Assembly (NCBI RefSeq): GCF_003173615.1
Contig: NZ_QGNA01000001.1
Span: forward strand, 1,612,001-1,676,000
Length of the DNA: 64,000 nt
Reading direction: 5' to 3'
DNA from: Falsiroseomonas bella
GTDB taxonomy: Bacteria > Pseudomonadota > Alphaproteobacteria > Acetobacterales > Acetobacteraceae
Positions 23,491 to 56,645 of the stretch are shown in pieces. Each line of letters starts with the position of its first letter. Position 1 is the first letter of the stretch. Below the pieces are notes generated by a model that saw only the letters and a program-made list of their open reading frames with translations, was not told the origin of the DNA and ran no database searches. A program made the position numbers and the translations under genes.

Positions 23491-23512
23491 GGCGCGCCCC
23501 GCGCCACGCGGC

Positions 23513-23701
23513 TCAGTGCAGCGCCTGCACGGCGCCCGCCCTGGAGAGATCCGGCACGAGCGCAGCCGCCATCGCCGCGTGCTGCGCCGCGGCCTCGGCG
23601 CCCAGGCGCCGGCATTCGGCCTCGACATAGGCCAGCATCAGGACAAGGGCGGAACGATCGTCCGTCGTCACTTCCGCCTTCGCACCCGCGCGAATCTTCA
23701 T
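23513..23701 (-). CDS. Small hypothetical protein
   Basis: A 62-residue protein with no recognised family. It starts MKIRAGAKAEVTTDDRSALV and continues as an amphipathic helix rich in Ala and Glu with a single Cys (AYVEAECRRLGAEAAA). A weak GGAC precedes ATG 23701. It is plausible as a real gene because codon usage is normal and a promoter-like, AT-richer region with inverted repeats lies upstream. It is convergent with metW. Confidence 0.45.
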   Translation of the reverse strand: MKIRAGAKAEVTTDDRSALVLMLAYVEAECRRLGAEAAAQHAAMAAALVPDLSRAGAVQALH

Positions 23702-23757
23702 CGTCCAAGGTCCTGGTGAATACGTCCGAGAGCAGCAGAGCATGCTTTGCATACAAC

Positions 23758-23846
23758 TCACGCCTGCGTGAAGGCACAATCGGTCGCCGCCTTGTTCAAT
23801 TGTTGGTTGGATCCGATCTGCTGCAATATCAATGCGTGAACACGCA
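23758..23846. repeat. Two GCGTG inverted repeats upstream of a small gene
   Basis: TCACGCCTGCGTGA (23758-23771) has perfect 6-base arms around CT. TGCGTGAACACGCA (23833-23846) has perfect 6-base arms around AA. Both use the same GCGTG/CACGC half-site, about 75 bases apart, in a relatively AT-rich non-coding stretch. They look like paired regulator sites for the minus-strand gene at 23513-23701. The regulator is unknown. Confidence 0.4.
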
Positions 23847-23889
23847 ATCACGATGACGGAATGGATGGGCTCCTCCCACGGTGCCGGAA

Positions 23890-23976
23890 CAAAAAGCCCC
23901 GACGGGAATCCGCCGGGGCGAGTTGAGGGAGGAAACGTCCAGGAACGTCCCGTCGGCACCGCAGCGCCTCGGGACG
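23890..23976 (-). ncRNA. Predicted FNR-controlled small RNA with CCUCCC loop
   Basis: No gene has been assigned here, but the minus strand shows a complete small-RNA layout. A 7-base stem CGTCCCG/CGGGACG (23976-23970 with 23952-23946) starts the RNA. A 26-base linker carrying GTTTCCTCCC follows, and an intrinsic terminator ends it. A perfect FNR box centred at 24016.5 would be at -41.5 if transcription starts at about 23975, which is where the first stem begins. CCUCC loops of alphaproteobacterial small RNAs pair with Shine-Dalgarno sites. The predicted length is about 86 nt. The -10 element is weak by eye. Not yet shown to be expressed. Confidence 0.6.
23891..23919 (-). terminator. Intrinsic terminator, minus strand
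   Basis: On the minus strand a 10-base stem GCCCCGGCGG / CCGTCGGGGC (one G-U pair, loop ATTC) is followed directly by TTTTT. No annotated minus-strand gene ends here, so it probably ends the predicted small RNA. Confidence 0.8.
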
Positions 23977-24009
23977 ATTGAAGCCTGACCGATGCCGCGA
24001 CCGGGTGCC

Positions 24010-24023
24010 TTGATGCATATCAA
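24010..24023. promoter_or_regulatory. Perfect FNR/Anr-type binding site
   Basis: TTGATGCATATCAA matches the consensus TTGAT-N4-ATCAA exactly and is a full palindrome. It stands 41.5 bases upstream of the predicted small RNA start on the minus strand (class II activator geometry) and about 130 bases upstream of phaB on the plus strand. Proteins of the FNR/FixK/Anr group bind this motif under low oxygen. Confidence 0.75.
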
Positions 24024-24145
24024 GTCGTTGCCGAATCGGGTGCCGGGGGTGCGTTTGCCCTCCGCCGCGCGGCTTGCGAGTGTATAAGGGAAGCCCGGCG
24101 ACGATCCGCCGGGCCGGGCAGGCACCCAGAAGGGAAACGAACAGC

Positions 24146-24868
24146 ATGGCACGCGTGGCACTCGTCACCGGAGGACAGCGGGGCATCGGCGCCGCGATCA
24201 GCGAGGCGCTGCAGGCCGCCGGCCGCAAGGTCGTCGCGAGCTATGCGGGGAACGACGCCGCCGCGCAGGCCTTCACCGAGCGCACGGGCATTCCCTGCTA
24301 CAAGTTCGACGTGGGCGACTTCGCCGCCTGCCAGGCCGCGGTGCAGAAGATCGAGGCCGAGATCGGCCCTATCGAGGTCCTGGTCAACAACGCCGGCATC
24401 ACCCGCGACGCCATGATGAAGCGCCTGACGCGCGACATGTGGGACCAGGTGATCGATACCAACCTCGGCAGCTGCTACAACATGTGCAAGGCGGTGTGGG
24501 ACGGCATGAACGCCCGCAAGTTCGGCCGCATCGTCAACATCGGCAGCGTCAACGGCCAAGCCGGCCAGATGGGCCAGGTCAACTACGCCGCCGCCAAGTC
24601 CGGCATCCACGGCTTCACCAAGGCGCTCGCCCAGGAAGGCGCGCGCAACCATGTCACGGTGAACGCCGTCGCGCCCGGCTATGTGGACACCGAGATGGTG
24701 CGCGCCGTGCCGGAGGACGTGCTGGCGAAGATCGTCGCGCGCATCCCGATCGGCCGCCTTGGCAAGGCCGAGGACATCGCGCGCGGCGTGGTGTTCCTCA
24801 CCGCCGACGAGGCCGAGTTCATCACCGGCTCCACGCTGTCCATCAACGGCGGGCAACATATGTACTGA
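24146..24868 (+). CDS. phaB: Acetoacetyl-CoA reductase
   Basis: A 240-residue short-chain dehydrogenase. It reduces acetoacetyl-CoA to (R)-3-hydroxybutyryl-CoA for polyhydroxybutyrate. It has the cofactor motif TGGQRGIGAAI, NNAGITRD, and catalytic Ser134, Tyr147 and Lys151 (NIGSVNGQAGQMGQVNYAAAK is split across these). The start MARVALVTGG and the end GSTLSINGGQHMY are exactly those of PhaB proteins. AGAAGGG precedes ATG 24146. Polyhydroxybutyrate synthesis often rises when oxygen is low, so the FNR box upstream may be relevant. A FabG function is a less likely alternative. Confidence 0.93.
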   Translation: MARVALVTGGQRGIGAAISEALQAAGRKVVASYAGNDAAAQAFTERTGIPCYKFDVGDFAACQAAVQKIEAEIGPIEVLVNNAGITRDAMMKRLTRDMWDQVIDTNLGSCYNMCKAVWDGMNARKFGRIVNIGSVNGQAGQMGQVNYAAAKSGIHGFTKALAQEGARNHVTVNAVAPGYVDTEMVRAVPEDVLAKIVARIPIGRLGKAEDIARGVVFLTADEAEFITGSTLSINGGQHMY

Positions 24869-29773: not shown

Positions 29774-30373
29774 TCAGCCGCGCGGGAAGGGCGGCAGCCG
29801 CACGCGGTCGCGCCCCTCCCGCCGCAGGGCGCCCATCCGCTGCAGGCGGGCCAGGGCGCGATAGGTCGCTTCGTGCGACAGGCCGAGCTCGGCCGCCAGC
29901 GACTTCCAGGGCACGGCCGGGCGCCGCGACCCGTCGGGCTCCGCCGGCAATGCGTGCAGCGCGTCGAGCAGCCGGTCCGCCGCATGCGGCAGGGCGAGCC
30001 GCACGATCCGCGCCCGCGCCGCCACCAGCCGCCCCGCGAGATGGGCGGCGAGGCGCCAGCCCAGCTCGGGGTCGGCCGAAGCGGCGTGCCGCAGATCCAC
30101 GGCGGCATGCACCCGCACCAGGCTGGGCGCGGCGGCGATCGCGTCGCAGTGATGCTGCGGCTCGAACAGCGAGGCCTCGGCGAAGGTCTCGCCGGGGCCG
30201 GCCCGGTGCAGCAGCAGCCGGCGGCCCTCAGGCGAGGTGCGCAGCAGCTCCAGCGCCCCCTCCTCCACCACGACCAGGCCGAGCGCCGCGTCGCCCACGC
30301 GGAACAGCGCCTCGCCGCGGACCAGGCGCCGGAGGCGGCCGGGCGGCAGGATCTGCAGGAAAGCGGTGTCCAT
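29774..30373 (-). CDS. Crp/Fnr-family transcriptional regulator
   Basis: A 199-residue regulator. The N-terminal cNMP-like beta-roll is seen in VRGEALFRVGDAALGLVVVEEG and GPGETFAEASLFEP; the C-terminal winged helix in WKSLAAELGLSHEATYRALARL. It has one Cys (in QHHCDAIA) and so lacks the FNR [4Fe-4S] cysteines; it is not an oxygen sensor of the FNR kind. The recognition helix keeps an E-x3-R pattern (HEATYR) as in Crp/Fnr proteins, but with Tyr at a key place, so it may use a different site. Ligand unknown. It is divergent from the Spy-like gene. Confidence 0.82.
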   Translation of the reverse strand: MDTAFLQILPPGRLRRLVRGEALFRVGDAALGLVVVEEGALELLRTSPEGRRLLLHRAGPGETFAEASLFEPQHHCDAIAAAPSLVRVHAAVDLRHAASADPELGWRLAAHLAGRLVAARARIVRLALPHAADRLLDALHALPAEPDGSRRPAVPWKSLAAELGLSHEATYRALARLQRMGALRREGRDRVRLPPFPRG

Positions 30374-47924: not shown

Positions 47925-48425
47925 ATGCCGCAGCTCGAATTCGGCAATCCGCTGCTGATCGCCCAGATCGTCTGGCTGCTGATCATCTTCGGGCTGCTGT
48001 ACTACGTGATGGCGAACTACGCGCTGCCGCGCGTGGAACGCGTGCTCGAGGACCGGCGCGCGCGCATCGCCGCCGACCTGCACGCCGCCCAGCAGGCGAA
48101 GGCGGAAGCCGACGCCGCCATGGCCGCGCATCGCGAATCCACCGCCAAGGCGCGGGCCGAGGCGCAGGCCGCCATCGCCGCCGCCATGCAGCAGGCCCAG
48201 GCCGAGGCATCCGCCCGCGCCGAGGAGCTGAACGCGCGCCTCGCGCGCCAGATCGATGAAGCCGAGAAGCGGATCGGCGCGGCGCGCGACGCCGCGATGG
48301 GCGCGCTGCGGCAGGTTTCGCTCTCCACGGCTGAGACGCTGGTCGGCAAGGTCGGTGGCCGGGCGGACCGCGGTGCGCTCGAGGCCGCGGTCGATCGCGC
48401 CCTGGCCGCCCGCGCCGCGGGCTGA
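47925..48425 (+). CDS. atpF': ATP synthase F0 subunit b'
   Basis: A 166-residue stator subunit. One N-terminal helix (LLIAQIVWLLIIFGLLYYVMANYALPRVERVL) is followed by a long charged helix rich in Ala/Glu/Arg, the b' design of alphaproteobacteria and phototrophs. ATG 47925 was chosen for its AGGGGG site; the ATG at 47883 would add 14 residues that look non-coding. It pairs with AtpF and ties F1 to F0. Confidence 0.9.
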   Translation: MPQLEFGNPLLIAQIVWLLIIFGLLYYVMANYALPRVERVLEDRRARIAADLHAAQQAKAEADAAMAAHRESTAKARAEAQAAIAAAMQQAQAEASARAEELNARLARQIDEAEKRIGAARDAAMGALRQVSLSTAETLVGKVGGRADRGALEAAVDRALAARAAG

Positions 48426-48437
48426 GGGAGCTTCGCC

Positions 48438-48947
48438 ATGGAACACCACTACGAATATTTCTGGCTGGACCCGAAATTCTGGGTCGCGGTCTCCTTCGTC
48501 GTCTTCGTCCTGCTGGTCGGCAAGACCGCCTGGGCGCGGGTGACCGCCATGCTGGACGAGCGCGGCGCGCGCATCCGCGCCGAACTCGACGAGGCCCAGC
48601 GCCTGCGGTCCGAGGCCGAGGCGATGCTTCGCCAGGCCGAGGCCGAGCGCAAGGCGGCCCAGCAGGAGGCCGAGGCCATGCTGGCCCGCGCGCGTGAGGA
48701 AGCCGAGCGCGTGGCCCAGGCCACCGCCGCCGAGGCCGAGGCCGGCGCCAAGCGTCGGGAGCGCATGGCGATGGACCGCATCGCGGCCGCCGAGGCCAGC
48801 GCGGTCGCCGAGGTCCGCAACGCCGCCGCGGAGATCGCGACCGTCGCCGCGCGCGACGTGCTCTCCGCGAGCGTGGACGCGGCTGCCGATGCGGCGCTGA
48901 TCGACGCCTCCGTGGCCGATCTGCCGCGGGCGCTTCGCGCGGCCTGA
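48438..48947 (+). CDS. atpF: ATP synthase F0 subunit b
   Basis: A 169-residue stator subunit with an N-terminal hydrophobic helix (WVAVSFVVFVLLVGKTAW) and a long helical part (MLDERGARIRAELDEAQRLR, and AEAMLARAREEAERVAQ). It follows atpF' after 12 bases and is the last gene of the operon, with a strong terminator behind it. The F1 genes are not here, in keeping with the split ATP synthase operons of alphaproteobacteria. Confidence 0.93.
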   Translation: MEHHYEYFWLDPKFWVAVSFVVFVLLVGKTAWARVTAMLDERGARIRAELDEAQRLRSEAEAMLRQAEAERKAAQQEAEAMLARAREEAERVAQATAAEAEAGAKRRERMAMDRIAAAEASAVAEVRNAAAEIATVAARDVLSASVDAAADAALIDASVADLPRALRAA

Positions 48948-56387: not shown

Positions 56388-56597
56388 GCCCCCCTCTGTC
56401 CCGTGACCTGAGAGATTCGGCGGCGGTCCCGTGGAGGAACCGTGGCGCCTTACTCCGTCGGTGCCGCGCCCCGTTCGGAGCGCGTCTTTCCAGAGGTCCC
56501 TACCCGCGCGGCCCTTCTGCCTGAGCGTTTCCGGGGGCCGGTTGCGCCTTCGGCGGAAGCCCGGGCCTCACGGCCCGTGCCTCTCTCTCCCGCGCGG
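56388..56597 (-). promoter_or_regulatory. Tandem glycine riboswitch
   Basis: Two aptamers lie on the minus strand just before gcvT. The first (about 56595-56508) has GGGAGAGAGG, GCCGAAGGCGCAACC and ACGCTCAGG; the second (about 56499-56388) begins GGACCTCTGG, then CACCGACGGAGTAAG, and AATCTCTCAGGTCAC. These are the conserved glycine-aptamer elements. Glycine binding turns on the gcv operon. A CCATAT-like -10 lies just upstream at about 56616. Confidence 0.9.
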
Positions 56598-56645
56598 GAT
56601 CTGCGGGATGCGCGGATATGGCGCAGTGCGCCGCCCGAGGCAAGC

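Follow-up and report, generated by a model that had tools for sequence, protein, structure and literature searches.

The phaB upstream region

The window analysed here is a stretch of 64,000 nucleotides (64 kb) of the Falsiroseomonas bella genome. Within it, phaB, the gene for acetoacetyl-CoA reductase (24146..24868, plus strand; TIGR01829, 341.9 bits against a cut-off of 302.1), is the divergent neighbour of a predicted small RNA (sRNA) gene of about 85-86 nt (23891..23975, minus strand). The phaB product also passes the FabG-type subfamily model PRK12824 (309.8 over 269) and stands under the PhaB equivalog cut-off (215.8 against 436). Between the two divergent promoters lies a palindrome, the FNR/FixK-type box TTGATNNNNATCAA (24010..24023), an exact match. 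Downstream of the sRNA, on the minus strand and outside the conserved cassette, is a gene for a 62-aa protein of unknown function (23513..23701), which has no Pfam match and was traced in relatives by its VEAEC motif. Upstream of this small gene, a TGC-N3-GCA at 23743-23751 resembles the PhaR/AniA sites described in the available text of PMC12542648. Elsewhere in the window, the minus strand carries a tandem pair of adjoining glycine riboswitch aptamers at 56393-56602 (RF00504, 55.6 and 45.8 bits).

The segment 23975-23891 of the minus strand looks like a small RNA gene. A 5' hairpin (23947..23975, from folding and a 10-genome alignment) opens with GTCCCG, its 5' arm, at the predicted start site. 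At the other end, folding, the alignment and an independent terminator scan all recover an intrinsic terminator with a T tract (23891..23919), whose stem at 23919-23896 has 10 pairs, 9 of them G-C, and is followed by TTTTT at 23895-23891; an earlier note on this DNA had claimed just such a strong terminator. The 86-nt RNA folds to -46.3 kcal/mol against a mean of -32.4 for shuffled sequences (z -4.4; none of 200 shuffles as good); the 169 nt of the region read from the other strand show no notable fold (z -1.3). Between the two hairpins is the 10-mer UUUCCUCCCU (23926..23935, minus strand), the putative anti-Shine-Dalgarno seed, and with it CCTCCC at 23932-23927. Minimum-free-energy folding gives a weak helix alone around UUUCCUCCCU/CCTCCC, so this is a linker and not a true loop: the single-stranded linker with CCUCCC of the earlier note stands, its description as a loop does not. 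The proposal of an sRNA gene of about 86 nt on the minus strand is supported by the fold, by conservation of the cassette and by a family relationship that the earlier note had missed.

A probable extra sibling of the alphaR8 family

That relationship is with RF00519 (alphaR8; suhB, MmgR). An Rfam cmscan of the sRNA gives this family 35.1 bits (E 1.2e-5), below its cut-off of 41 bits, with a match spanning 23953-23881 of the minus strand that covers the linker and terminator and leaves the 5' hairpin outside. Among the matches listed for orthologs of the sRNA, two reach the cut-off (45.9 bits in G013 and 43.1 in G011) and six fall under it (G014 and G012 at 40.7, G006 at 40.3, G005 and G007 at 39.5, G010 at 36.8). 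The other cmscan matches, among them ncS037, Betaproteobacteria toxic sRNA and Spot 42, score far under their cut-offs and are, judged by eye, mainly terminator-based. Two further features of the family are present: the 10-mer lies 3' of a hairpin, at 23935-23926, with only a weak helix around the seed, the same 10-mer being described for the SisA-D RNAs in the sections of PMC12559287 that were available; and a Rho-independent terminator follows, as it does in all 10 aligned copies.

Of 99 genomes searched, 71 match RF00519 at E <= 0.001; the source genome does so three times, the two matches listed for it scoring 58.4 and 41.8 bits. The 58.4-bit copy (C7:617051) adjoins a gene for N-formylglutamate amidohydrolase (FGase; PF05013), the usual location of alphaR8 according to the same sections of PMC12559287. 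Since that copy occupies the customary place, the sRNA beside phaB is to be read as an extra sibling. The copy at 23891-23975 has no FGase linkage, its neighbour being phaB; further alphaR8 siblings sit elsewhere in the Caulobacter genome (PMC12559287, in part), so the missing FGase link does not decide membership. By these comparisons the sRNA looks like a sibling of alphaR8 (suhB/MmgR), present as an extra copy, and this identity makes its phaB neighbourhood more meaningful.

The closest points of reference are MmgR of Sinorhizobium meliloti and SisA-D of Caulobacter crescentus. With MmgR, itself of the alphaR8 family (RF00519), the sRNA shares the family match, the 10-mer seed and the terminator. 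MmgR limits PHB and phasins in S. meliloti (PMC8401924 and PMC7143759, both in part), is controlled positively by NtrC and negatively by AniA/PhaR through a dyad between the -35 and -10 elements (PMC8401924, in part), and is the only alphaR8 copy in that species (PMC12559287, in part). Unlike MmgR, the sRNA described here has phaB for a neighbour, a 5' hairpin that is stronger, an FNR box centred at -41.5 and two further copies in its genome. SisA-D are alphaR8 siblings that are sponged by CrfA; they have separate promoters, one of them lies beside FGase, and their 10-mer seed represses many mRNAs, acting with Hfq on a broad set (PMC12559287, in part). That arrangement of several siblings, one FGase-linked, with a common 10-mer seed resembles the one in the source genome. 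In contrast, the available sections of PMC12559287 report no conserved motif upstream of sisA-D and do not mention an FNR box or a phaB neighbour there.

The FNR-type box and the geometry of the predicted sRNA promoter

The box TTGATGCATATCAA at 24010-24023 is the sole match in the 64-kb window at one mismatch or fewer, where 0.18 are expected; the pattern matched is what we take to be the FNR-box consensus. The perfect FNR box of the earlier note is thus upheld as exact and as unique in the window. In the 5.9-Mb genome there are 8 perfect boxes and no match to the reversed control pattern. Among the 8 are boxes upstream of genes assigned by Pfam to a COX1-type oxidase subunit and a PLP-dependent enzyme, which we read from their sequences as ccoN and hemA. 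Both ccoN and hemA are classical FNR/FixK targets. About 76 kb before the window (G000, C1 about 1534100-1537100; L142), a perfect FNR box has photosynthesis-cluster-like genes (by eye, AcsF- and PuhE-like) on one side and a hemA-like gene on the other, and in view of those genes the organism may be an anoxygenic phototroph.

A sigma70 consensus scan of 23500-24200 finds no promoter-like site, and the -10 hexamer position of the sRNA promoter in the source genome is degenerate (CAGGCT, 23982..23987, minus strand); the evidence for a -10 element comes from the orthologs. All nine congeners that carry the cassette have TANNNT here, so that in 9 of the 10 cassettes this hexamer stands exactly 22 bases from the box, and no other offset between 8 and 54 gives a match. 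In 20,000 shuffles of the spacer the best offset attains at most 3 of 10 and none reaches 9 of 10, by a statistic that ignores kinship. The +1 position deduced from the hexamer falls on GTCC, the first bases of the hairpin, or one base earlier. The spacing from box to TANNNT is that of class II (-41.5) geometry: position 23975 lies 41.5 bases from the centre of the box and opens the hairpin arm, and the predicted RNA start is where the earlier note had put the beginning of a stem.

Conservation of the cassette within the genus

A phaB ortholog is present in all 15 genomes of the genus (Roseomonas/Falsiroseomonas). Ten have the box together with the sRNA core within 450 bases upstream of phaB (G000, the source genome, and G004, G005, G006, G007, G010, G011, G012, G013 and G014); in the remaining five (G001, G002, G003, G008 and G009) both are absent from those 450 bases. 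Nine of the ten boxes are perfect, that of G005 having one mismatch. The check in relatives suggested by the earlier note, that box and hairpins be conserved, comes out in favour of its proposal: the box, the -10 spacing, the 5' hairpin, the anti-Shine-Dalgarno linker and the terminator occur together in the source genome and in 9 of its 14 congeners. The 10-mer UUUCCUCCCU is invariant across the 10-row alignment, partly by construction, since the rows were selected by a fixed core. How often the cassette arose is left unsettled by the phaB tree: a single origin was considered, the best tree requires 2 changes, and 1 change suffices in 48% of 200 bootstrap trees.

The GTCC/GGAC pairs and five inner pairs of the 5' hairpin are kept in all ten genomes, 3 pairs having changes on both sides; of its six outer pairs the first four are kept in all ten, and the fifth and sixth pairs of the source copy are unpaired in 7 and 9 of the ten, respectively. 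The first terminator pair of the source copy is likewise not generally kept. Over the 10-row RNA alignment, 4 pairs are changed on both sides, against 0-1 with slid partners, a result reached in 2 of 500 shuffles, and 6 of 500 attain the covariation score. Of the five measures, two are weak, paired cells standing at 89.5% against 88.1% (40 of 500 shuffles) and further pair types being matched in 185 of 500. RNAalifold, applied to the alignment, finds only 2 pairs with both sides changed.

The genomic surroundings bear on whether the RNA is independent. The region ends in a terminator about 190 bases ahead of the small protein gene at 23513-23701, which it shares a strand with, and might be the 5' leader or attenuator of that gene and not an sRNA of its own. 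In 8 of the 10 cassette genomes the VEAEC motif of the 62-aa protein does occur upstream of phaB, at a distance of up to 1500 bases. However, it occurs there also in 4 of the 5 cassette-free genomes (12 of 15 overall), and in G010 and G004, 2 of the 10, a different gene lies directly downstream while the sRNA is still beside phaB. Since the RNA moreover matches a family of trans-acting sRNAs, we consider a leader very improbable and an independent sRNA the preferred reading.

Distribution beyond the genus

The arrangement box-N50-80-GTTTCCTCCCT is found in 13 of 397 sampled genomes of the family (Acetobacteraceae), and the reversed control in none of the 397. The 13 comprise 8 of the 13 sampled genomes of the source genus and, from a second genus, 5 of 6. 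In this latter genus the box and alphaR8 lie away from phaB, with differing neighbours (a peptide-ABC substrate-binding protein in several, by eye); the gap between box and core is 62-65 and the hairpin again begins near +35 from the box. Its five copies lack TANNNT throughout the offsets tested. Across 84,980 named genomes, a set that may leave out the source genome, a scan returns 32 stretches: 9 from the source genus, 5 identical to second-genus sequences and 18 others. The 18 outside both genera are treated as chance matches, 13 of them on inspection by eye. The other five (L066, L071, L072, L084 and L086) were searched against Rfam, and only that from Martelella (L072, gap 54) is RF00519 at cut-off. 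Its FNR-like match is taken to be fortuitous, since by eye it overlaps a normal -35 element, TTGACA, which is followed at 17 bases by TAAGGT.

Chance could also be invoked at the locus itself, as a palindrome that happens to lie next to a decayed, functionless alphaR8 copy. The poor -10 element and the RF00519 score under cut-off in the source genome would fit such a history. Set against them are the pattern of identity over the ten genomes, where the half-sites of the box average 98% pairwise and the 22-base spacer and the central 4 bases of the box each 42%, the covarying hairpins, and the control without a match in 397 genomes. A fortuitous juxtaposition is hardly credible.

Which promoter does the box serve?

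On the phaB side, a candidate promoter, TTGC-N19-GAGTGT (24055..24083, plus strand), rests on a motif conserved in congeners, and the centre of the box lies about 72 bases or more upstream of the candidate phaB start. Use of the box by phaB is possible. In its strongest form this would mean that the box serves phaB, from a class I position, and that the adjoining alphaR8 copy has its own, unrelated promoter. The box is indeed upstream of phaB in all ten cassette genomes. Of the 9 congeners with the GAGGAT hexamer, 8 have the box centred 60.5-62.5 bases from the phaB -10, near a class I position, and other bacteria do have FNR-type regulators acting on their PHB genes (PMC9049629, in part). Yet the spacing to the phaB -10 takes four values in the congeners, 60.5 (4 genomes), 61.5 (1), 62.5 (3) and 69.5 (1), and in the source genome measures 66.5 to TATAAG or, by subtraction, 61.5 to GAGTGT, whereas the offset of 22 to the sRNA -10 is the same in 9 of 10. 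A constant distance on one side and a variable one on the other argue that the box is tuned to the sRNA. The second genus, furthermore, has the box and alphaR8 with no phaB in the stretches examined. That the box belongs to phaB and not to the sRNA is quite improbable.

A palindrome with workable spacing on both sides could drive the sRNA as class II and phaB as class I at once, a divergent FNR switch that is compatible with the explanation preferred here. Besides the inconstant phaB spacing, what speaks against it is that TTGC-N19-(G/A)AGGAT is kept on the phaB side in all nine cassette congeners and equally in all five cassette-free ones: the motif is independent of the box, and phaB does not need the box. 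Sharing of the box is possible, if doubtful. A fuller version, put forward tentatively and in our estimate rather unlikely, makes the one palindrome an oxygen switch: in low oxygen, synthesis of the storage polymer would start while the alphaR8 RNA trims the translation of phasins or other anti-Shine-Dalgarno targets. This would be a feed-forward loop of the incoherent type, and the second genus, whose box-bearing alphaR8 copies lie apart from phaB, would offer a related case of oxygen wiring.

A candidate regulator

A PF13545 profile search of the genome gives 20 matches, 8 of them over cut-off and two of these GntR-type by eye; a PF00325 search gives none. The recognition helix of FNR is ExxSR, and FNR has its own cysteine pattern. 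None of the six Crp-type proteins examined combines ExxSR with what we take to be the E. coli FNR cysteine pattern. The best candidate regulator, on sequence, is a protein that resembles FixK and FnrL most (63.8 and 58.2 bits, well short of the equivalog cut-offs of 300). It has a CxxC near the N-terminus in place of the FNR cysteine pattern, two further cysteines conserved in all 8 orthologs examined, and EHANR as its recognition helix. Orthologs of at least 77% identity are present in 14 of the 15 genomes of the genus; the sole exception, G009, is also the only genome without any perfect box, a single coincidence that is suggestive only. A second, more distant homolog (30-34% identity), found in 8 congeners, could bind the box instead.

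An FtrB/DNR-like Crp protein (C9:669542) was also considered. Its helix, PETLSR, fits, yet orthologs of at least 67% identity occur in only 5 of the 15 genomes (G000, G005, G006, G007 and G014), which rules it out as the regulator of every cassette. G014 (C159:8700-8807) and G007 (C5:743667-743774) each have two perfect FNR boxes, 94 bases apart, immediately upstream of the FtrB/DNR-like gene, as if the gene were autoregulated. Within the window, 29774-30373 of the minus strand encodes a further Crp-type regulator (cNMP_binding over cut-off, HTH_Crp_2 under it).

Proposed mechanism and targets

The best explanation, and in our judgment a probable one, is that a duplicated alphaR8 sibling stands beside phaB under a class II FNR/FixK-type promoter and acts as a broad repressor induced by low oxygen. 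The family relationship, the conservation of the cassette, the promoter geometry and the companion boxes at oxygen-type genes, all results of sequence comparison, are what it builds on. In the spacer upstream of phaB, a duplicated gene of the alphaR8 (MmgR/SisA) family would have acquired such a promoter. On a fall in oxygen, or in a related redox signal, the FixK/FnrL-like regulator would bind the box at -41.5 and switch on the RNA of about 86 nt, in which the 5' hairpin and the terminator hairpin would flank and expose UUUCCUCCCU. The exposed seed would pair with the Shine-Dalgarno regions of many mRNAs, probably with Hfq, and lower their translation; the repressed set would include functions of carbon storage or aerobic growth. 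Transcription and the oxygen response, like the identity of the regulator, the dependence on Hfq and the targets, are what we infer from these comparisons.

That phaB should be a special target of its neighbour is an attractive notion, and its ribosome site does look complementary to the sRNA (CGUUUCC with GGAAACG). It is not borne out: the pairing energy of -15.9 kcal/mol is equalled or bettered by 19 of 54 window genes, a background from a crude GC-position gene caller in which some starts are wrong, and in all five cassette-free congeners phaB pairs more strongly with the sRNA (-16.2 to -25.2 against -15.9 kcal/mol). With phaB not singled out, a broad anti-Shine-Dalgarno repressor, induced by low oxygen, becomes the reading to prefer. 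Among the 54, the ribosome site of the gene for an ATP synthase b-type subunit (48410-48450) ranks second, at -24.3 kcal/mol with the sRNA seed, and is a possible target. A PHB synthase gene is present in the genome (PF07167, 272.2 bits), and PHB physiology is a plausible theme of the sRNA; among PHB-gene mRNAs the pairing comparison covered phaB alone.

A further parallel is FnrS of Escherichia coli, whose sequence and seed differ from those of the alphaR8 sRNA. FnrS, an sRNA induced by FNR, represses many mRNAs that the cell can do without when oxygen is lacking (PMC8139620, in part), and it belongs to a gammaproteobacterial system. Anr, CydR, Fnr and FixK2 are oxygen-responsive Crp/Fnr proteins that affect PHB metabolism; there a protein controls the pha/phb genes, and the available text of PMC9049629 has no alphaR8 sibling under such a box. 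Both parts of the present arrangement, the alphaR8 sibling and the FNR-type class II promoter, would be of known kinds; their combination was not seen in the open literature surveyed, and among the matches listed from the open-licence literature none describes an alphaR8 sRNA controlled by FNR.

A 2025 study left open whether alphaR8 siblings are redundant or act independently of one another, and whether each has a role in carbon metabolism (PMC12559287, in part). This locus is a clear case in which one alphaR8 sibling has gained both a carbon-storage neighbour and a defined signal, in the form of an FNR-type box placed at class II distance, and with it the question of redundancy among siblings becomes testable within one strain. 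The sRNA cassette would tie oxygen shortage to control of carbon storage by RNA.
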